A stretch of DNA of 31,659 nt, taken from positions 1 to 31,659 of IMG/VR virus record IMGVR_UViG_3300025127_000136. One strand, given 5' to 3'. Positions 3,501-29,785 of this stretch are shown piece by piece. The translations under genes and the position numbers were made by a program. Origin of the DNA: a virus. The notes beneath the pieces were generated by a model. The model had not been told where the DNA came from and did not search any database. It saw only the letters and a program-made list of their open reading frames with translations. Numbering within the stretch: position 1 is the first letter of the stretch; each line of letters begins with the position of its first letter.

Positions 3501-6500
3501 TTAATTATATTTCATTCCTAAATCTATATTAATAGGCTCATTATCTTCAGATATTCCAAGTATTTCTAATGGATTTCCAGTTTCAGCAGCATTTCTAATT
3601 CTATTTGAAAGCGTTACTGGATACCCAGCTAATGCTAATCCATCTTCAAAATCACGCCATTTAAGTTCTTCACCCTTAATAGCTTTAGAAAAAGTTTGTG
3701 TAGCAGCTTTAGCTCCCGCAATAACAGGAATTTCATATTCATATCCTTTTCTTGTTTGGTTAGCTACATTTCCCAAGGGTGTTCCTGCTGTAAGTATTAA
3801 TTGAAGGGCAGCATCAGCAAGTTCTTCTGGACTTTCAGGTAGTTTTAAATCATTGTCTATAATCCATATACCCATACCAGATAAACCTAATGATGTTAAA
3901 AGTGTTGCTGCCTTTTCTCTGGATTCTGCGTCTTTAAAGTTTTTTGCTAAACGTGGGTATCTAACAAAAAGAGCATTAGTATTTTTTACTAACTGGTTTG
4001 TAAACATAAGAAACCATCTAGCTCCTTCGTTTCTATATATACTTGGTAACTCTTCTGGTAAACTTGTAGGCTGTGTTCTTGATGTAGCATCTCTTGCTAA
4101 ATTTAAAGCTTGCTCTTTAGTTTTTCCATCAGCTCTTGCTTTTTTATATACAGCATAAGAACCTGCAACCTTTACCTCTAAGTCCATTCTCATAATAGCT
4201 TTAAAACCAAGCATAGCACCATCATCTAATATTTTTTGAAATAATTTAGGATTTTTATTTCTAAAATCATTAAGAATACTATCGATTGTATTTTGTTTTA
4301 ATACAGGATCATTAGATAAAATAAATTTTCTTATTTCCGGGTTTACAGTTGATTCGGCAAAAGAAACCATTAATCTAGTAAAACCTTCTGCACCACCACC
4401 TAGTTCTTCCATATATCTAAAGTAAGATGGAATCTGTTTTAAAACTGTTTTAAAGTTATATGCTAAATAAGCAGTAGAAACATTTTTTCTTAATCCTCTG
4501 CTTAATTTATTTCCTATAGTATAACCTAAATTAGGATTAGCTACTACATCTGCGTGAGATTTTAATTCTTCTAATATAGAATTTCCGTAAGCTTTTTTAA
4601 TTAAAGGAGCTGTTGTTTTGTTTGTAGCTAAACCTCGTAATGTTTTTACAACATCATATTGCGTCATATAATGTTCTTGCATATCTACCATACGTTTATA
4701 TTCACCAAATAAATCAAGATTTACTTTTGCGTTTGACTTAACACGTTCTTTAGTAAATGGATTTGCTATACCATTATTATTATCATTTTTTTTGCCAGAA
4801 AACATATCGTGTATATCATCTGATCCACGTTTAAATTCTGCGTCTTGTCTAAATAAAGGAGTATAATAATCAATTTTAGCTAACACTTTTCCTGTATATC
4901 TAGCATAAGCTTCGGCTAATCTAGGTCTATGAGCTGCATAATCTGCTATAATAAAATCAGCTATTTTTTTTAAATTAACATTATCTTCAACATATTTTAT
5001 TGCTGCATTTAAAGCATTAGTATCTTTTTTAAAGTTTCCATTAAGAATAGCATCATAACCACCCTTTTGTTTTGATTTAGCATATATACCCGCTAATTCA
5101 GATAAAGATAATTTTTGATACCCTTTATAAAAAGAAACCCGTTTACTTAAATCTCTTGCTGTAAATTTAAGATTTTTTAATAAATTATTAAATGCACCTA
5201 TTCTTGCTTGAGTATTTTTTAAAGCAGTTGATCTTCCTTCTCTTCTACGAGTAACAACAGAATTATACAATTTACCACCATACTTACCTTTAGTTCCGTC
5301 AAGTAAATCTACAATATTATCTATAGTAACAAATTTTCTTCCTTGACTTACTAAATTTCTAACAACACCTTTTACGCCTGTTTCAGGTCTATCAATAACT
5401 TCTATTTTTTTAGGTTGTTTTTTTGGTAAATTAGCTTCAACGCTTTTATAAATTTCTTTTCTGTTTTCTGATTCAATTTTATTAGAACTTGTTTTAATTT
5501 CTTTTGCTTCTACTTTTGCTGCTTTTTTTCTAGCATTACTAATATCAACAATTAATTTTTCTTTAGTAACACCTGATCCACCAGCTTTTATTCCTAAAGA
5601 TTTTGCTTCTGCTCTAATTTGATTATATGATGCTGTTTCTAAATTTAATATATCTGTAGATACTTTTTGAGGTGCAAGCTCTGCATCTGTAGAACCTTTT
5701 TCATAAATTGTTTTAGCTATATCTTCACTTGTTTTTAATACAGGATTATCCTCAACTTCTTTAATTGCCTTTTGCCGTTCTTGTTTTGTTACTTTTACAC
5801 CTTTTGCTTTAGGCGCTGGCATAAATTCAAACCCACCAACTACAGGTAAATATTCAGGAAGTTTTACATTAGTTTGAACACGCCTAGTCATAACACCAAA
5901 CACAACATCAGCAGTAAATAGTTGTATTCCTTCTGACATTAAAAATTGTTTTTCTATTTCAAATATTTCTTCTTCAGTAGCATTTTCTCCAGCAACTTGA
6001 ACAGCCATTAATCTTGCTTTTTCTTGTGCATCTTTCCATCTAAAAACTAAAGACCCTGTAGCATTAGCACCTATATCTTTTATAATAGCTCTAAAATTTG
6101 TTTTTGATAAAGAAGTAAAAGCAGGTGTCATAGAAAGACCACCCATTATGGCTGCATTTTTAAGTCTAGTTTCTTGATCGCCAGTAGTAGTTAAATAAGT
6201 ATAAGCACCCATAAAACCAGAACGTAATGATGTTATTTTAAATAATTCTTTATAAGATTTACCTTTTGCTATAATAGAAAGTTTTTTTCCTTTAAGCAAA
6301 AAGTTTGCAGCTTGCATCATTTTACCTATTAAAATAAAATTGCCTGCAATATCACCAACTCCCTTTTTAATAGTTCGTTGATAAAATTTATTTTTGTCAC
6401 CTTCTAATAAAGCTTCATTTAAACCTTGTTGTTGAATTGCTTCAAATTGTTGAACTTTTTTATTAAAATAATTATCTTCTTCTGCACCAATTAAATCAGC

Positions 6501-19241: not shown

Positions 19242-19625
19242 TTATTTGTTTGTAGTCGATTTTGATTTCCCTTTTGGAGCTTTGCTTTTCTTTTTAGGTG
19301 GAGTCGATGTTTTTTTGACATCATTGTAGTTAACCACTTCGATAATAATGTCCTGTTTCTCCTCACCAAGTCCAGCCAGCTTCGCCAGCTTGTCCGATGC
19401 CTGTGCGTTGCCACGCTCACTCTCTGTAAACAGATGCTCTAAAACAGCCTTACGCAGTCCATCCTTGTCCTCCAAGTCTACTGCCGAGGTGGTAGCTATC
19501 TTAACCTGTTCATCAGCCTTAGCCAGCTTCCTATACAAAGCCTCAAACTCCTGCGATAAAGCCCACAACTTCTTGTTGTCGTCTGCAGACTCTTGCAACC
19601 TAGCGTAAATTTCTTGTGAAGTCAT
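19242..19625 (-). CDS. Terminase small subunit-like DNA-packaging protein
   Basis: 127 aa, first gene of the late operon. Helical N-terminal region (MTSQEIYARLQESADDNKKL), a central KDGLRKAVLEHLFTESERGN followed by ASDKLAKLAGLGEE, and an extremely basic Lys/Ser/Pro tail (TPPKKKSKAPKGKSKSTTNK). The central part resembles the DNA-recognition helices of small terminases, with the common 'ASDKLAKL..L' phrase, and the position two to four genes before the large subunit fits. The tail could bind DNA. The start has only a weak GGA 9 nt upstream. A sigma70-like promoter lies 30-57 nt before the ATG. Confidence 0.7.
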   Translation of the reverse strand: MTSQEIYARLQESADDNKKLWALSQEFEALYRKLAKADEQVKIATTSAVDLEDKDGLRKAVLEHLFTESERGNAQASDKLAKLAGLGEEKQDIIIEVVNYNDVKKTSTPPKKKSKAPKGKSKSTTNK

Positions 19626-19653
19626 TTTAAATTTCCAAATTTAATATATATTC

Positions 19654-19682
19654 TGTATAAGACATTAACTAGGGTAGGTCAA
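19654..19682 (-). promoter_or_regulatory. Sigma70-like promoter of the late operon
   Basis: Minus strand TTGACC (19682-19677), exactly 17 nt spacer, TATACA (19659-19654), placed about 30 nt before the first late gene. The match and spacing are good for a housekeeping sigma factor. Timing could be set by the repeats located upstream of it in the divergent region. Confidence 0.6.
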
Positions 19683-19759
19683 TAAAAAAGATTTTCTTTT
19701 TAATATCAAATTTTACAAATCTTGGTAGAGGTCTAAATACATACATACACAGCAACTCG

Positions 19760-19793
19760 CCCCCGACGCCCCCCCCTCACAAATGCCCCCCCC
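19760..19793 (-). other. G-run cluster (possible G-quadruplex on minus strand)
   Basis: The plus strand has C-runs of 5, 8 and 8 (19760-19764, 19769-19776, 19786-19793), so the minus strand carries G-runs long enough to supply four G-tracts. The rest of the window is AT-rich, making this stand out. It lies in the divergent control region next to iteron-like repeats. Possible roles are origin structure, packaging signal or polymerase pause; none is shown. Confidence 0.45.
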
Positions 19794-19875
19794 TATGTAC
19801 GCCTTTAAATACCTACAACTTGTACGCCTATTAACTCGCAAGGGTATTAATGCCTACAGTTGGTACGCTTTTAGC
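19792..19875. repeat. Three iteron-like repeats in the divergent control region
   Basis: A motif close to CCTACARYTKGTACGCCTWTTAA occurs as a core TGTACGCCTTTAA (19796-19808), as CCTACAACTTGTACGCCTAT (from 19812), and as CCTACAGTTGGTACGCTTTT (from 19853). Core spacings are 25 and 40 nt. Such repeats may be binding sites for the phage initiator or a repressor, between the late promoter and the early transcript. Confidence 0.5.
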
Positions 19876-19991
19876 CCGTGTGTGTGCGTATAGGGGTTTG
19901 GCTTGATGGAAGCTGCGAGGGTTTAAACTCTCTTTATGTTCCCCTTATAGGTTCTTTATCTTTCCCTATATGGTTTAGCTCTATTACTCTC

Positions 19992-20149
19992 TAAGTCATT
20001 GACTGTTAACTACTTATAAAAAATATGTAAACGATCTCTTTCGTAAGTCATTGAATATCAAGGGTTTACATAAGTTGATTTTCATTTATGCAAGTTATCG
20101 GAAAGAAGCCCCAAAAAAGATGAAAAAAAATTCTTTCGTAAGTCGTTGA
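19992..20149 (+). repeat. Three direct repeats AAGTC(A/G)TTGA
   Basis: TAAGTCATTGA at 19992-20002 and 20044-20054 and TAAGTCGTTGA at 20139-20149; the second and third are also preceded by TTTCG. Each brings a TTGA suited to a -35 (TTGACT, TTGAAT, TTGATT). They may be operator or activator sites, or -35 parts of serial early promoters. Other sequence from about 19880 to 20190 shows only AT-rich DNA and the 8-bp palindrome GTTTAAAC at 19921. Confidence 0.45.
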
Positions 20150-20178
20150 TTGACAGCAACTTAAGTACTTAATTTTCT
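20150..20178 (+). promoter_or_regulatory. Candidate early promoter (rightward)
   Basis: TTGACA at 20150-20155 is a perfect -35, inside the third AAGTC repeat. At 17 nt the -10 would be TTTTCT (20173-20178), a weak match. A start near 20185 would place the folded RNA beginning at 20194 at the very 5' end, which fits. Other weaker pairs are TTGACT (19999)/AATATG and TTTACA (20065)/TATGCA. Confidence 0.35.
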
Positions 20179-20189
20179 TTAACAAAATT

Positions 20190-20486
20190 ATTCGCTGGAA
20201 CCGCTGCACGGTTTTTGTACATTGGTACTCGTTCGCAGGGAACAAGCCAGCCCACTAAGACGACTGCAAGAGCAAGCGGTGATGATGAAAGACCGGCAAC
20301 CAAGTCAGGACAGACTTAACCAGTCAGGCCGAATCCACACGGACAATCAGTGGACGGTGAGTGTCAGACCCTTCAACCGAAGCAACTCGACTCGCCGCGA
20401 ATCAGCAGGCGGAAATAAAACGTTGATGAAACAGCCATCCTCTAAGGCTTAGGCGGTCAATGAATGAGTACGTGGACGACTGACCG
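20190..20486 (+). ncRNA. Candidate structured non-coding RNA at the 5' end of the early transcript
   Basis: GC-richer than its surroundings and full of nested hairpins. GCUGG/CCAGC (20194-20198 with 20247-20251) closes a four-way junction containing AACCG/CGGUU (20199-20213), GUAC/GUAC (20217-20228) and GUUC/GAAC (20231-20243). Further helices: CGGU/ACCG (20277/20292), AAGUC/GACUU (20302/20313), GAGU/ACUC enclosing CUUC-AACC-GAAG (20359-20388), CGCC/GGCG (20393/20408), AGCC/GGCU (20433/20446) and CGGUCA/UGACCG (20454-20459 with 20481-20486). A 76-codon open frame crosses it, but its Ser/Arg/Gln-rich composition and lack of an SD argue against coding. Cleavage by the first hammerhead at 20508 would release it from the mRNA. 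I do not recognise the class. Confidence 0.55.
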
Positions 20487-20490
20487 GAAA

Positions 20491-20538
20491 ATCGAAACCC
20501 TAAGGGTCTAGCGGATTGGTGACCGCTACTGATGAGAT
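20491..20538 (+). ncRNA. Hammerhead ribozyme 1 (type II)
   Basis: Order AUC-GAAA-stem III-GUC-stem I-CUGAUGAG-AU, i.e. stem II is the open helix. GAAA at 20494-20497; stem III ACCC-UAA-GGGU; cleavage predicted after C20508; stem I UAGCGG (20509-20514) pairs perfectly with CCGCUA (20523-20528) around an 8-nt loop; CUGAUGAG at 20529-20536; short stem II AUC/GAU, possibly extended by GG/CC. All core nucleotides are present. It lies between the structured RNA and the first early gene. Confidence 0.88.
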
Positions 20539-20569
20539 AGCCAATTTAAATTAAAATAGGAGGAAGCAA

Positions 20570-20941
20570 ATGAATTACGGAAATTTTGCAGAATGGGAAA
20601 TTAAGAGTGCTTGGATGGGATCGGGTTTTGCTCGTGATTTATGTGCAAGATGGTTTGACTGGAATGAAGATGATCTTGATGACTGTTGCGGGCTTGATAC
20701 AAAGGGAAGGCACAGGGGTGAGATATACTGGTTAACTGTCAAAAAAGGCGGGTGGCAAGGGGGAGTGACTAGCAGAGGGATGAAATGCGTTGCCATTGTG
20801 GTAGATGGAGAGGTTATTGCCAAGGCTTGGAAGGATAATAGATTCCCCAGTAACCTTGATGATTACCTGAGACGTATTCAACACGATACTAGGGAGTATT
20901 CTTTGCAGGATTTATTCTTTTGCGATGAGGTAAGCAACTAA
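20570..20941 (+). CDS. First early protein, unknown
   Basis: 123 aa starting MNYGNFAEWEIKSAWMGSGF. It is rich in Trp, Asp and Gly (CARWFDWNEDDLDDCCGLDT; LTVKKGGWQGGVTSRGMKCV) and looks like a compact mixed alpha/beta acidic protein. No membrane segment or known motif. SD AGGAGG lies 7 nt before ATG. As the first gene of the early transcript, flanked by hammerhead ribozymes on both sides, it is a candidate host-takeover protein; this is positional inference only. Confidence 0.7.
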   Translation: MNYGNFAEWEIKSAWMGSGFARDLCARWFDWNEDDLDDCCGLDTKGRHRGEIYWLTVKKGGWQGGVTSRGMKCVAIVVDGEVIAKAWKDNRFPSNLDDYLRRIQHDTREYSLQDLFFCDEVSN

Positions 20942-20955
20942 CAACACCTTTATAA

Positions 20956-21010
20956 ATCGAAACGGGTTTCGACCCGTCTGTCTAGCGTGGTGGCTAGGCA
21001 CTGATGAGAT
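20956..21010 (+). ncRNA. Hammerhead ribozyme 2 (type II)
   Basis: GAAA at 20959-20962; stem III is six pairs (ACGGGU/ACCCGU) capped by a UUCG tetraloop (20968-20971); cleavage predicted after C20978; stem I UGUCUAG/CUAGGCA (20979-20985 with 20994-21000, one G-U) with loop CGUGGUGG; CUGAUGAG at 21001-21008; stem II AUC/GAU. All catalytic positions are intact. Cleavage would leave the upstream mRNA ending in the UUCG hairpin and the downstream one starting with the stem I hairpin. Confidence 0.92.
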
Positions 21011-21040
21011 AGCCAATTTAATTAAAACAGGAGAAAACAA

Positions 21041-21286
21041 ATGAATGACGAATTAAAAAAATTAATCAAAAAGCTAGACTTGGAGGAAGGGATCGCCAAA
21101 AAGCGGTATGAATTGGAAGAATTAAATTACGATATGGATGCACCTTCATATGAGGATAATGGTGAACTAGAAAGAACAAGGGCAGATTGGAAGCAAAAAT
21201 TTGCGGTATGTGTAGCAGTCTCCAAAGCTCTGGGACAAGATGAGCAGGGAAACGATATATACTTTAAACTTCTAAAAGAGGATTAA
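21041..21286 (+). CDS. Small acidic helical early protein, unknown
   Basis: 81 aa starting MNDELKKLIKKLDLEEGIAK. Highly charged; the first 50 residues look like an amphipathic or coiled-coil helix (KKRYELEELNYDMDA), followed by a second helix (RADWKQKFAVCVAVSKALGQ). SD AGGAG 8 nt upstream. It stands alone between two almost identical hammerhead ribozymes. No known family; small early phage proteins of this kind often bind host enzymes, which is only a general expectation. Confidence 0.7.
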   Translation: MNDELKKLIKKLDLEEGIAKKRYELEELNYDMDAPSYEDNGELERTRADWKQKFAVCVAVSKALGQDEQGNDIYFKLLKED

Positions 21287-21341
21287 ATCGAAACGGGGTT
21301 CGCCCCGTCTGTCTAGCGTGGTGGCTAGGCACTGATGAGAT
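21287..21341 (+). ncRNA. Hammerhead ribozyme 3 (type II)
   Basis: Starts on the base after the stop codon of the 81-aa gene. GAAA at 21290-21293; stem III ACGGGG/CCCCGU with UUCG loop (21299-21302); cleavage predicted after C21309; stem I UGUCUAG/CUAGGCA (21310-21316 with 21325-21331); CUGAUGAG at 21332-21339; stem II AUC/GAU. An alternative longer pairing of UUAAAUC (21283-21289) with GAUUUAA (21345-21351) exists. Nearly identical to ribozyme 2 although the flanking genes are unrelated; stem III differs by compensating bases. Confidence 0.92.
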
Positions 21342-21371
21342 AGCCGATTTAAATTAAAAGGAGACAAGCAA

Positions 21372-21584
21372 ATGACAAAAAATGAAATAATCGAAACAAT
21401 TAGAATCAGAAGAGAACGAAATCAAAAGATCGCATCAATACAGGAATTTATTGATGACACCTACAAGCAAATGGAAACATCACCTAAAGAGGGTATCGCA
21501 GGCACCATCGTAAAATCTCATTCAGTGATGAAGGGATGGATTAAACAAGCTGAGGAGCAGATCGAACAGTTAAGAGGATGGTAG
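21372..21584 (+). CDS. Small helical early protein, unknown
   Basis: 70 aa starting MTKNEIIETIRIRRERNQKI, with a helical, Glu/Lys/Ile-rich sequence through MKGWIKQAEEQIEQLRGW. Likely a coiled-coil hairpin. SD GGAG lies 9 nt upstream. Its stop is followed directly by the 5' strand of a type I hammerhead (CCUAA at 21585). Function unknown. Confidence 0.68.
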   Translation: MTKNEIIETIRIRRERNQKIASIQEFIDDTYKQMETSPKEGIAGTIVKSHSVMKGWIKQAEEQIEQLRGW

Positions 21585-21633
21585 CCTAACTGATGAGCCG
21601 TAGACGGCGAAACCGCAGTGATGCGGTCTTAGG
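21585..21633 (+). ncRNA. Hammerhead ribozyme 4 (type I)
   Basis: Here stem I is the open helix: CCUAA (21585-21589) pairs with UUAGG (21629-21633). CUGAUGAG at 21590-21597; stem II GCCG-UAGA-CGGC; GAAA at 21609-21612; stem III ACCGCA/UGCGGU with GUGA tetraloop (21618-21621); cleavage predicted after C21628. All core bases are present. The downstream mRNA would begin UUAGGAUUUAAAUUAAAA, a short unstructured leader with its SD. Confidence 0.92.
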
Positions 21634-21661
21634 ATTTAAATTAAAACAGGAGATAAGCAAA

Positions 21662-21997
21662 ATGAAAGTATCAACAAAATATGAAGTGTTAGAAACAAGA
21701 TATCTAAATGAAGTTGAGATCTACGGAATCGAAGCAATGATTAATAAATACATCGATGATTTATATGAGGCACAAGGCACGCATAAAACTGGTTTGTACG
21801 AATGCGGGGGAATGCTGCACCCCGAAATCGATTTACATTGCGATGAGGGAAAAATCTCACGCTTAGGAATGGTATACGATAGGGTTGTTGTTGAAATAGA
21901 GTTGACCAATGACGAGGACGAAGGTACCGATGAGTTTATTAAATACTGGTTTTTACCTCGTGCGGGCGGGTTTGAATTGTACCAAATTGGGGGATAA
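21662..21997 (+). CDS. Acidic early protein, unknown
   Basis: 111 aa from ATG 21662 (MKVSTKYEVLETRYLNEVEI), preceded by AGGAG. The frame stays open upstream to an ATG at 21593, but that 23-residue extension (MSRRRRNRSD...) is the translation of hammerhead 4 and its leader, lacks an SD, and recurs before an unrelated gene; it should not be annotated. The protein is acidic with beta-strand-like segments (ISRLGMVYDRVVVEIELTND) and a His/Cys-containing CGGMLHPEIDLHCDEG. No recognised family. Confidence 0.68.
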   Translation: MKVSTKYEVLETRYLNEVEIYGIEAMINKYIDDLYEAQGTHKTGLYECGGMLHPEIDLHCDEGKISRLGMVYDRVVVEIELTNDEDEGTDEFIKYWFLPRAGGFELYQIGG

Positions 21998-22000
21998 AAG

Positions 22001-22049
22001 CCTAACTGATGAGCCGTAGACGGCGAAACCGCAGGGATGCGGTCTTAGG
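22001..22049 (+). ncRNA. Hammerhead ribozyme 5 (type I)
   Basis: CCUAA (22001-22005) with UUAGG (22045-22049); CUGAUGAG 22006-22013; stem II GCCG-UAGA-CGGC; GAAA 22025-22028; stem III ACCGCA/UGCGGU with GGGA tetraloop (22034-22037); cleavage predicted after C22044. It differs from ribozyme 4 at one position in the tetraloop, which stays in the GNRA class. Confidence 0.92.
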
Positions 22050-22074
22050 ATAAACAATAAAAAAGGAGTCAGAC

Positions 22075-22344
22075 ATCAAAACGACAGCGAAAAAAATAGG
22101 TAAGTACACAGTTGAACTCAACAACGAAAACGATGGTTGGTCAGTTATTTCTTATGGCAACTACTCGTCAACACTCCAAGCTATGGAGATGACAGGCGAA
22201 CTAAGTAATATGAGTGACTCTGGTGCTACCGAACACATCGTTCCTGTAGCGGATCAGATAAAAATTCATAAGTGGGTTGGCAAGCAAACGGAGCAAGACT
22301 ATTCCGATCTCTATGATGAGGAGGAGTGGAACGCTATAGCCTAA
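22075..22344 (+). CDS. Early protein with an apparent ATC start codon, unknown
   Basis: 89 aa if initiated at ATC 22075, reading IKTTAKKIGKYTVELNNEND. AGGAG ends 6 nt before this ATC, exactly where a start should be; the frame is stopped upstream by TAA at 22051, and no ATG, GTG or TTG occurs until 22183. The body looks like a real small alpha/beta protein (DGWSVISYGNYSSTLQAMEM; WVGKQTEQDYSDLYDEEEWN). Either a rare AUC start is used, the gene is silenced by a G-to-C change, or the base is a sequencing error. Its stop codon lies within the 5' strand of hammerhead 6. Confidence 0.6.
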   Translation: MKTTAKKIGKYTVELNNENDGWSVISYGNYSSTLQAMEMTGELSNMSDSGATEHIVPVADQIKIHKWVGKQTEQDYSDLYDEEEWNAIA

Positions 22345-22388
22345 CTGATGAGCCGTAGACGGCGAAACCGCAGGGATGCGGTCTTAGG
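22340..22388 (+). ncRNA. Hammerhead ribozyme 6 (type I)
   Basis: CCUAA (22340-22344) with UUAGG (22384-22388); CUGAUGAG 22345-22352; stem II GCCG-UAGA-CGGC; GAAA 22364-22367; stem III with GGGA loop (22373-22376); cleavage predicted after C22383. The UAA of its stem I is the stop codon of the preceding gene, so a terminating ribosome would cover the core. Confidence 0.92.
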
Positions 22389-22413
22389 ATTTAAATTAAA
22401 ATGGGAGAAGCAA

Positions 22414-22626
22414 ATGAGTAAATATGTCATATTAGTAAATCAAATGGATGATAAAGGAAAAATAAGAAAATTACATACAGGCACATACGATTACGAAAGA
22501 GCATTAGAAATCTACAATAGAGACAAGAAGGATGGCTGGCAGGTTTTTATGCAAAAAGAGGTCGAGTTTAAAATAAATCGAATGCACGAAATGGCGCAAG
22601 AATTAGAGAAATGGAGATTTGCATAA
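22414..22626 (+). CDS. Small early protein, unknown
   Basis: 70 aa from ATG 22414 (MSKYVILVNQMDDKGKIRKL), preceded by GGGAG 6 nt upstream. An in-frame ATG at 22348 would add MSRRRRNRRDAVLGFKLKWE, which is hammerhead 6 read as protein, and is rejected. The N-terminal strand and charged helix (YDYERALEIYNRDKKDGWQV) followed by a C-terminal helix suggest a small alpha/beta fold. Its stop is directly followed by hammerhead 7. No known family. Confidence 0.65.
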   Translation: MSKYVILVNQMDDKGKIRKLHTGTYDYERALEIYNRDKKDGWQVFMQKEVEFKINRMHEMAQELEKWRFA

Positions 22627-22681
22627 ATCGAAACGGGGTTCGCCCCGTCTATCCGATGTGGTGATCGGGTACTGATAAGAT
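22627..22681 (+). ncRNA. Hammerhead ribozyme 7 (type II, degenerate core)
   Basis: GAAA 22630-22633; stem III ACGGGG/CCCCGU with UUCG loop; expected cleavage after C22649; stem I UAUCCGAU/AUCGGGUA (22650-22657 with 22664-22671) is an eight-pair helix of different sequence from ribozymes 1-3. The core reads CUGAUAAG (22672-22679), so G8, the catalytic base that pairs with C3, is A (22677). Architecture is preserved but activity is expected to be strongly reduced or lost. Confidence 0.82.
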
Positions 22682-22710
22682 AGCCAATTTAATTAAAATA
22701 GGAGAAAAAA

Positions 22711-22860
22711 ATGAATAAAAGAATAAAAGTTCTAGGTGAAGTAAAACTAAAAGGCAAAGGCACAAATCTTTTCAACTATCAATACATAGATCAAGATGGA
22801 AAGCCTATATCAGCAACTTTTCAGGCAACAAAATCAGCATTGATGGGGATGGTAAAATGA
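22711..22860 (+). CDS. 49-aa basic protein upstream of lysozyme, unknown
   Basis: Starts MNKRIKVLGEVKLKGKGTNL and ends SALMGMVK. Beta-strand-rich (NYQYIDQDGKPISATF), basic, no membrane segment. SD AGGAG lies 6 nt before ATG. Its TGA overlaps the ATG of the SLT protein (ATGA), so the two are translationally coupled. It is the first gene after the last hammerhead. Function unknown. Confidence 0.6.
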   Translation: MNKRIKVLGEVKLKGKGTNLFNYQYIDQDGKPISATFQATKSALMGMVK

Positions 22861-23234
22861 ATTGGGCGGGATTATTATTCGTGATCGCAATGGTGGAAAG
22901 CGGGGGCAACCCTAACGTAAAAGATGGGGACGATGGCTTGGCGTTCGGTATGTATCAAATCCATTCGGGCTATGTCGAAGATGTCAACAGGGTTTACGGC
23001 ACAACCTACACCCACGAGGACGCAAGAGACAGAGAGACGGCTGAGTTAATCGTTGTCCGTTACCTAAGATTCTGGGCGAATCGCTACGAATTGAACACGG
23101 GCAACAAGGCAACCGCTGAAGATTATTTCAGGCTGCACAATGGCGGATGCCATTTTTGGAAGAAGAAACACAAGACAGACGGCTATGTAAAAAAGTGTTT
23201 TAAAATTATCGACAAGTACGGCATACGCCTGTAG
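22857..23234 (+). CDS. SLT-type lytic transglycosylase (endolysin candidate)
   Basis: 125 aa. Catalytic glutamate motif at VESGGNPN (E14), then GLAFGMYQIHSGYVEDVNRV matching the SLT 'GxxQI' block, and YFRLHNGG near residue 90 as the third motif. It would cleave the MurNAc-GlcNAc bond of peptidoglycan. The hydrophobic residues 4-12 may form part of the first helix rather than a signal peptide. T7-like phages often carry this domain on the large internal virion protein, but here it is a stand-alone enzyme. Its placement in the early operon rather than beside the holin-like gene (30108-30533) is unusual. It is coupled to the preceding gene by ATGA. Confidence 0.78.
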   Translation: MNWAGLLFVIAMVESGGNPNVKDGDDGLAFGMYQIHSGYVEDVNRVYGTTYTHEDARDRETAELIVVRYLRFWANRYELNTGNKATAEDYFRLHNGGCHFWKKKHKTDGYVKKCFKIIDKYGIRL

Positions 23235-23259
23235 TTTATACATAAAGAAAGGATAAAAA

Positions 23260-23367
23260 ATGATTGAGCCACCTATCGACCCACCAGAATCTTACTGGGG
23301 TTATGAAGAAGAAGAAGATTACTCACTTGAATTATCAAAAATACAAACAGAAAAGGAAATGGAATGA
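23260..23367 (+). CDS. 35-aa acidic protein, unknown
   Basis: MIEPPIDPPESYWGYEEEED followed by a short helix ending EKEME. AAGGA upstream of ATG at 7 nt. Its stop overlaps the start of the next small gene (ATGA), as for all neighbours in 23260-24314, which supports its reality. Very acidic and Pro-rich. No function inferred. Confidence 0.5.
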   Translation: MIEPPIDPPESYWGYEEEEDYSLELSKIQTEKEME

Positions 23368-23492
23368 ATAATGATGCACTAAACGAAATGATTAAAGACC
23401 TAGAGTACTCGGTTGAGTTTCACGCCAAGCAACTAAAAGCAAAAAAGATACAACTAAAAGCGTTAAAGCAAATGAAAGAAGGTGAAAAATGA
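23364..23492 (+). CDS. 42-aa helical protein, unknown
   Basis: MNNDALNEMIKDLEYSVEFH followed by a Lys/Leu/Gln-rich helix (KQLKAKKIQLKALKQMKEGE). The whole chain is predicted as one amphipathic or coiled-coil helix. AAAGG upstream, ATGA overlaps at both ends. Unknown role. Confidence 0.55.
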   Translation: MNNDALNEMIKDLEYSVEFHAKQLKAKKIQLKALKQMKEGEK

Positions 23493-24329: not shown

Positions 24330-25259
24330 ATGATACTTAAATTAGTAGGCGTTACATTCGCCACAGATAGAAACCCCGAACTTAAACAGCTACGACCTAG
24401 TGGCGTGGTGAGTTTCGAGGCAGAGCCAGACAACGAGTACGACCCGAATGCGGTCAAGGTTATGTATAAAGACCAACACATCGGGTATGTACCCAAGTCT
24501 GAACTCGCACAGAAAACAGCGTTGGAGTACGGCACGGCAAAAATAATTGATTATGCCTACTGGGATTCCGACATCAAGTGGAACGAGAACCACATCGGGC
24601 AGTTCCAGTCTATGACATTCGAGATCGGTGAAGTTGAGATGGACAATGGCAGAATCATTGGCGGTAGATACATTCGCTGCACCAAGTTCCTCAAGTACTT
24701 CGACCCATACGGAGGCGGTGACGGCTTGTTGCGTTGGGCATTCAATCAGGGTGACACCTTTGAAAAGTACGAAGAAGCCTTGAACGAGTGTGCTGAGAAT
24801 GGTACATTGATGCACGATGCGATTGAGAACTGGCTTCGTGATGGTACTGAGTCCGACCTGTTACCAGAGGGATGGGACAACTTCGTCAACAAGTACAGTC
24901 CTGAGTTTGTGTATGGTGAGGAGAGGTTCTACGACAACAACCTTATGATCACAGGGCAGCCCGACTTCGTTGGGTACATTGACTGGAAGGGACAACGGAT
25001 TCGTGCGGTGGTGGATTGGAAGTCTAGTAAGAAACCAAGTATGAAGCACAAGATACAGGCAAGTATATACTCGATGAACTGTTCTATCGATGAACAACCT
25101 ATCGAGGGTGCGTTGGTTGTGGCGTTCGGTGCTAGTACCAAGCAAGGATTCAGCGTAGGGTATGTTAGTCGAGAGCAGATCGAGTCAAACTACCTTGCGA
25201 TGGAGCATATAAAGAAAGCAATGGAATGTGTAGGAGTGTATGTAGATGAATACTATTAG
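24330..25259 (+). CDS. HIRAN domain fused to RecB/Cas4-like PD-(D/E)XK nuclease
   Basis: 309 aa. Residues 1-75 form a HIRAN domain: a strand (LVGVTF), then FEAEPDNEYDPNAVKVMYKD and IGYVP, the family's 'E..N.YDPNAV' signature, which binds single-stranded 3' DNA ends in HLTF-type proteins. Residues 115-309 carry the RecB-family nuclease motifs: GTLMHDAIENWL (H162), GQPDFVG (D212), VVDWKSSK (D229, K231) and QASIY (Q243, Y247). It would bind damaged or stalled DNA ends and degrade or trim them, perhaps in replication-coupled recombination or host DNA breakdown. No four-Cys iron-sulphur cluster is seen, unlike true Cas4. It overlaps the next gene by 14 nt. Confidence 0.85.
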   Translation: MILKLVGVTFATDRNPELKQLRPSGVVSFEAEPDNEYDPNAVKVMYKDQHIGYVPKSELAQKTALEYGTAKIIDYAYWDSDIKWNENHIGQFQSMTFEIGEVEMDNGRIIGGRYIRCTKFLKYFDPYGGGDGLLRWAFNQGDTFEKYEEALNECAENGTLMHDAIENWLRDGTESDLLPEGWDNFVNKYSPEFVYGEERFYDNNLMITGQPDFVGYIDWKGQRIRAVVDWKSSKKPSMKHKIQASIYSMNCSIDEQPIEGALVVAFGASTKQGFSVGYVSREQIESNYLAMEHIKKAMECVGVYVDEYY

Positions 25260-29504: not shown

Positions 29505-29508
29505 CTGG

Positions 29509-29576
29509 TCTAGAATCTGTACCAGTCTAGAATCTGTACCAGTCTAGAATCTGTACCAGTCTAGAATCTATACCAC
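29509..29576 (+). repeat. Four tandem 17-bp repeats in the early 3' UTR
   Basis: TCTAGAATCTGTACCAG at 29509-29525, 29526-29542 and 29543-29559 are identical; the fourth (29560-29576) is TCTAGAATCTATACCAC. The sequence CTGGT before copy 1 can pair with the ACCAG of copy 1. Located between the last early stop and the terminator. Confidence 0.9.
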
Positions 29577-29664: not shown

Positions 29665-29785
29665 TGTAATACCTCCAATGTTAGTGCGTTCCTTCGCTCA
29701 CTATGAGTTACTTCCGAGCGTCACCGCAGGTAAGGGTCAAAATTAAACCCTTCACACGTTGGACAGCTTGAACGATCTTAATACC

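Follow-up and report, generated by a model that had tools for sequence, protein, structure and literature searches.

Why should a phage genome carry a self-cleaving ribozyme in nearly every gap along a row of small genes? The question is raised by IMG/VR virus record IMGVR_UViG_3300025127_000136, a 31.7-kb virus record from a metagenome assembly, whose whole length of 31,659 nucleotides (nt) is hereafter called the window. Seven hammerhead elements lie on the + strand at 20491-22681, and their types follow the order II, II, II, I, I, I, II. Elements 2-7 are each found between the stop codon of a small gene and the next Shine-Dalgarno (SD) sequence, in the orientation of the genes, and element 1 lies in the leader of the first gene, g1. 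As the preliminary description of this locus had stated, the genes between 20570 and 22626 are bounded by ribozymes; this holds for g1-g6, each of which has a same-strand element on both sides. The best explanation of this arrangement, and in our view a probable one, is that the message is cut during transcription, without protein, into monocistronic mRNAs whose ends are protected by hairpins.

The core rules given by Perreault et al. (2011; PMC3088659) are C3 U4 G5 A6 N7 G8 A9, G12 A13 A14, A15.1-U16.1 and H17. Elements 1-6 follow these rules throughout, and element 7 departs from them at G8, which is replaced by A. In the same paper, active hammerhead variants with A8 also carry U3. The G8A change of element 7 has no compensating C3-to-U change, and from its sequence this copy is probably dead, or slow; its counterpart in the related contig L012 has an intact core. 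The preliminary description had reported seven elements with the positions, types and six cut sites listed in Table 1 and had counted six intact copies. Sequence reading, Rfam and a structural scan agree with it on all of these points, the seventh copy being CUGAUAA.

Rfam covariance models recognized the array in part. In a cmscan search, three type II copies exceeded the Hammerhead_II (RF02276) threshold of 37 bits (20955-21018, 60.3 bits; 21286-21349, 60.2 bits; 22626-22689, 52.1 bits, the last being the G8A copy), whereas element 1 (20490-20546) scored 36.8 bits, 0.2 under the threshold. Elements 1, 2, 3 and 7 all match RF02276 over its full model length, and they have in common with that family a pseudoknot in which loop I pairs with the 3′ tail (7, 4, 4 and 4 base pairs (bp), respectively). 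Elements 4-6 fell below every Rfam threshold: HH9 (RF02275) gave approximately 18 bits against 52 (18.3 bits for element 4), and RAGATH-1 (RF03152) gave 31 bits, for element 5, and 23 bits against 56.3. These three elements share the core and the strand order of HH9 and RAGATH-1, but they differ by their scores and by a short stem I of 5 bp, with a conserved G.A mismatch outside the stem. All core letters and all three stems are present in elements 4-6; because of the low scores, we class them as type I by core and structure and not as members of either family. Two sub-threshold matches to the Rfam freshwater-2 motif (at 20961 and 22632; 24 bits against 49.9) overlap the type II hairpins.

The preliminary description had also claimed that stem I of the type II copies covaries within this one genome. 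This stem does vary in the window; however, elements 2 and 3 have an identical stem I sequence, and therefore the window type II copies contain three stem I variants and not four. The stems of elements 4-6 are invariant within the window, and their covariation comes from relatives. Among nine type I sequences (six of them distinct), 97.8% of the pair cells are standard and 4 pairs have changed on both sides, a value reached in 4 of 500 shuffles; when the partners were slid by 1-3 columns, 24-39% of the cells were paired and 0-1 pairs had double changes. The structural scanner found the six intact window copies and had 0 matches in 100 Markov-shuffled windows. This result and the 0 matches in 380 kb of shuffled loci rule out a chance origin of the array. 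A minus-strand type I match at 5892-5984 (CTGAAGA, with long weak loops), obtained in a loose scan, was rejected as a chance match inside an open reading frame (ORF) of 1165 amino acids (aa).

Table 1. Hammerhead elements, leader and genes of the array region in the window.
Feature	Coordinates	Strand	Description
Leader	20205..20490	+	Probably untranslated; 5′ to element 1; conserved in part in L012 and L060 (three sequences only)
Element 1	20491..20538	+	Type II; predicted cut after C20508; core intact; 7-bp loop I/3′-tail pseudoknot; before g1
g1	20570..20941	+	ORF, 123 aa; no PHROG or Pfam match
Element 2	20956..21010	+	Type II; predicted cut after C20978; core intact
g2	21041..21286	+	ORF, 81 aa; no known family (PHROG, Pfam)
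Element 3	21287..21341	+	Type II; predicted cut after C21309; core intact; first base adjoins g2 stop codon
g3	21372..21584	+	ORF, 70 aa; no known function (PHROG, Pfam)
Element 4	21585..21633	+	Type I; predicted cut after C21628; core intact; first base adjoins g3 stop codon
g4	21662..21997	+	111 aa; weak phrog_4874 match (function unknown)
Element 5	22001..22049	+	Type I; predicted cut after C22044; core intact
g5	22075..22344	+	89-aa open frame; starts ATC after GGAG; first ATG at 22183, 36 codons further in
Element 6	22340..22388	+	Type I; predicted cut after C22383; core intact; overlaps g5 stop codon
g6	22414..22626	+	ORF, 70 aa; no known family (PHROG, Pfam)
Element 7	22627..22681	+	Type II; site C22649; core mutation G8A (CUGAUAA)
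g7	22711..22860	+	ORF, 49 aa; overlaps lysozyme gene start, no ribozyme between
Transglycosylase/lysozyme-like gene	22857..23234	+	Pfam SLT, 23.9 bits against 21.3; just 3′ of array

Does the arrangement extend beyond the window, and is it the catalytic core that is kept? Type-specific pattern scans revealed many viral-contig loci with several same-strand hammerheads; these loci are among the matches listed, and their frequencies do not estimate prevalence. The patterns fix the ribozyme type, so the proportion of type II to type I matches carries no enrichment signal. For 212 distinct hammerheads from 112 loci, an ORF stop lies within 160 nt upstream in 97% (median 2 nt for type II), and an SD sequence with a start codon lies downstream in 80%. 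The two features occur together in 78%, whereas random positions give 25% and the antisense strand gives 9%; among 164 type I elements, the figures for both features are 63% versus 21%.

Conservation of the core was assessed in a search by structure only, on type II elements outside the search patterns. The core is perfect in 51 of these 51 unselected elements and none has one deviation; nine structure-only matches with two core deviations look like background. Of 244 type II pattern matches, 72% have a paired stem I, versus 4% with shuffled partners, and pairwise ribozyme identity within one array falls as low as 53-65%. The cores are thus perfect while the stems and the remaining sequence diverge, and therefore catalysis is what is kept. 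The identification of the window elements as hammerheads in a serial array, as originally described, is supported both by their anatomy and by this conservation across phages. These data also bear on the idea that the elements are inert spacers, that is, stable intergenic hairpins that are left uncut. Plain hairpins do occur at related junctions (L060:7951, L055:1175) and the core is mutated in some copies, but an inert hairpin gives no account of unpaired catalytic letters that are perfect in all unselected elements, and similar tandem sets have been shown to cleave (PMC3088659). We find this explanation scarcely credible, and core conservation rules out inert repeats as the main reading of the array.

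How, then, would the array work? The intact cores, together with cleavage assays published for other hammerheads, lead us to predict cleavage at the window sites. In a rightward transcript of g1-g7, nearly every stop codon would be followed by a hammerhead, placed just 5′ of the next SD sequence. Each hammerhead would fold during transcription and cut itself once without protein, and the products would be one-gene mRNAs that each retain their own ribosome-binding site. A type II cut would place hairpins on both new ends: the upstream mRNA would end in stem III and bear a 2′,3′-cyclic phosphate, and the downstream mRNA would have stem I from its first base onwards and bear a 5′-OH; a type I cut would leave structure on the 3′ side only. 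When the predicted post-cut products were folded, both type II end hairpins formed and the SD sequence was unpaired in most. Element 1 would remove the leader at 20205-20490 from the message, and element 7 would have lost its activity, or most of it. RNA ends that have a 5′-OH and are capped by a hairpin would be expected to resist RppH/RNase E-type decay. Because of this property, the benefit may be stability of each small mRNA as well as its independent translation, a suggestion that draws on general knowledge of mRNA decay and on the analogy with phage T7. In T7, the host protein RNase III cuts the early transcript between cistrons, and the resulting mRNAs are separate and have structured ends. 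Products of this kind are likewise expected from intercistronic cuts in the window; unlike in T7, it is the RNA itself that would be expected to cut, leaving a 5′-OH and a 2′,3′-cyclic phosphate.

The closeness of ribozyme and ribosome-binding site admits a different reading, in which the elements are regulated or down-regulating switches: each gene would be tuned or silenced through the rate of cleavage, which would be set by ions or, at the overlapping leader, by a ribosome or an RNA-binding protein. The 3′ end of the ribozyme lies just before the SD sequence and the pseudoknot strand lies near it, so that competition between ribosome and ribozyme is possible, and regulation is raised as a possibility in PMC3088659. 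However, the cut leaves the SD sequence, the start codon and the ORF intact in the cases examined, the loops are short with no added aptamer-like domain, and the same arrangement is found on many unrelated genes. We therefore give the switch explanation little credence.

The reading of the array as a cutter of a polycistronic mRNA into monocistronic pieces, which the preliminary description had advanced, is well supported by anatomy and comparison, with the cleavage itself predicted from the cores. Several points weigh against it. Elements 4-6, of type I, reach none of the Rfam thresholds. The core of element 7 is mutated, and two related phages, L025 and L057, keep type I-like copies (L025:1597-1652 and L057:6148-6203) with U4C (CCGAUGA) and a mismatched 10.1/11.1 first stem II pair; their stems covary, and they are possibly a natural core variant or a non-cutting derivative. 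The g1 orthologue of L060 has no ribozyme before it; the junctions L060:7951-7974 and L055:1175-1200 consist of a bare hairpin, AT(C/T)(G/T)AAACGGGGAGGCAACTCCCC-like, before the SD sequence and start codon, and the hairpin resembles the 5′ half of a type II element without core or stem I. Mutated cores and bare-hairpin junctions indicate that cutting is useful but dispensable at some gaps. Energy-based folding in context fails to favour the short closing stems (stem I of type I, stem II of type II), which is usual for hammerheads when tertiary contacts are left out of the folding. Lastly, the early timing of g1-g7 and their single shared transcript are assumed. PHROG and Pfam profile searches gave no known function for any of g1-g7, and the label of early genes used in the preliminary description derives from their position only. 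A scan of 19600-23400 for sigma-70 promoters showed no excess (7 found versus 8.8 expected), and a terminator scan of the same region showed a weak excess (5 versus 2.5).

The genes themselves have been reshuffled among related phages. Four genes, g1, g2, g3 and g6, have orthologues that stand in a different order and behind different ribozymes: g1 is preceded by a type II element in the window, by a type I element in L059 and, in L060, by the plain hairpin; g3 is preceded by the TGTCTAG type II element in the window and a TAGCGG type II element in L016; and g2 by the TGTCTAG type II element in the window and a TATCCGAT type II element in L012. In L054, the g6 orthologue is followed by a TGTCTAG type II element. 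Despite the reshuffled order and ribozyme type, the genes stay 70-100% alike among relatives. Because the gene orders and the preceding ribozymes differ, a unit of ribozyme, A+T-rich leader and SD sequence may act as an exchangeable junction, and the near-identical ribozyme-leader cassettes would then also serve for gene reshuffling between related phages.

It could be argued that this is the main reason for their persistence, the cassettes being homologous junctions for the swapping of small accessory genes, with cutting either incidental or useful only in giving position independence. The window does contain near-identical copies, in repeat families of 106 nt and 72 nt (array repeats of 54-106 nt), and the reshuffling of gene order and ribozyme type around genes that remain alike is what such junctions would produce. 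Several related contigs also break off within the array, a sign that assembly may be hindered by arrays. However, recombination requires no catalytic core, and the ribozymes of other arrays keep perfect cores at pairwise identities down to 53-65%. We regard junctions as the main function as unlikely, and prefer message processing with the junctions as an additional use.

The layout is widespread in phages, and arrays of comparable or greater length, with as many as 24 elements, were found in other phages. Type II arrays include those of L004/G001 (7-8 elements), L152 (8), L096 and L102 (7 each) and the first stretch of L135 (10). The whole 57-kb record behind L135 (L302, G034:C1:8500-19500) has 24 type II elements in 7.6 kb, all over the Rfam threshold. 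In our annotation of this array, most intervals are one small gene and the next ribozyme begins -1 to +4 nt from the stop codon; the pseudoknots are 3-6 bp in the 21 elements scanned. Type I arrays include L379, with 9 type I elements and one type III, and L311 and L344, with 6 each; a blastn search of the L379 array against cultured phages found no match. The cultured Streptomyces phage Marav (L427, OQ995441.1:40820-49689) has 13 type II hammerheads, 11 of them over the threshold and all in gaps between annotated genes. Marav is an independent check, because its gene annotation came from others. Single hammerheads were found in Vibrio phage vB-Vv-ZX4290 and Rhodobacter phage RcWaterboi. One of the Marav hammerheads lies directly 5′ of an OCR-like antirestriction gene. 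It is a tentative reading, which may well hold but which we would stop short of calling probable, that these cases form a general and repeatedly evolved phage system of mRNA processing, in which long arrays (7, 13, 24) of hammerheads of either order take the place of protein nucleases, give end-protected single-gene mRNAs and provide swappable ribozyme-leader-gene cassettes.

The preliminary description was mistaken in its view that this is not a described system. Perreault et al. (2011; PMC3088659) reported prophage operons in which single genes or short blocks are flanked by several hammerheads, of types I, II and III, and they proposed processing into single-gene mRNAs. Three tandem arrangements, from Clostridium scindens, Azorhizobium and Agrobacterium, were cleaved in vitro, and the Agrobacterium triple was also cleaved in Escherichia coli (PMC3088659). 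The idea that clustered phage hammerheads process messages was therefore already described in 2011, and the window resembles those clusters in having several same-strand hammerheads that flank single phage genes (g1-g6). Compared with the arrangements tested there, one of which is named a triple, the window has a row of six intact elements and one mutant with types II and I mixed. Every g1-g7 gap is filled here, relatives show reshuffling, and other phages reach 8, 13 and 24 elements. To our knowledge, the additions are the longer and mixed-type arrays, their breadth, the type I-only arrays, the test of core conservation on unselected elements, the reshuffled junctions and a cultured phage with 13 elements; a later description of long phage hammerhead arrays was not found in the literature searched, which was mostly without subscription papers.

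Paired hammerheads are also found in retrozymes and viroid-like RNAs, where, as expected for the window, repeated hammerheads release unit-length RNA. By analogy with retrozymes, the 5′-OH and cyclic-phosphate ends could be ligated into circular or spliced RNAs, and two hammerheads flanking each gene have the geometry that gives monomers with ligatable ends. However, the units in the window are protein-coding genes of a DNA phage, and nothing points to circles, retrotransposition or RNA replication. The window proteins scanned, which are part of the total, include no RNA ligase or RtcB-like protein, and spliced or circular products were sought and not detected in the tandem arrangements of PMC3088659. 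Ligation is a very improbable explanation.

What the many hammerheads of bacteria and phages are for has been a question since 2011. The one-gene intervals of the long arrays, the kept cores with drifting stems and the shuffling of genes together with their ribozymes suggest that message processing is the function under selection, and the Marav hammerheads make this reading directly testable in a cultured phage. If it is true, the arrays are a natural, enzyme-free conversion of an operon into single-gene mRNAs, which would be useful in synthetic biology too. The 24-element array of L302 deserves separate study.

Several other features of the window remain to be described. The ATC that opens the g5 frame may be a rare start codon, or it may reflect a mutated start or a fault in the assembly. 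The leader at 20205-20490 may be a structured RNA, having 6 pairs with double-sided changes in three sequences only and an unfavourable covariation term. In the divergent intergenic region 5′ of the array, the sequence CTTTCGTAAGTC(A/G)TTGA is repeated at 20018-20054 and 20113-20149 and is a possible regulatory repeat. Elsewhere in the window, the portal protein is approximately 30% identical to pelagiphage connectors, and a DnaB-type helicase is encoded. A glutamine riboswitch aptamer (RF01739) lies on the - strand at 29683-29776 (36.1 bits against a threshold of 35), with no obvious gene directly adjoining it on its 3′ side on that strand; it is also found in the related contigs L025 and L026. 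Adjoining this aptamer, between convergent gene sets, at least four direct copies of the 17-mer GTCTAGAATCTGTACCA occupy 29508-29575. The protein encoded at 24330-25259 has an N-terminal HIRAN domain and a weak match to PD-(D/E)XK nucleases.

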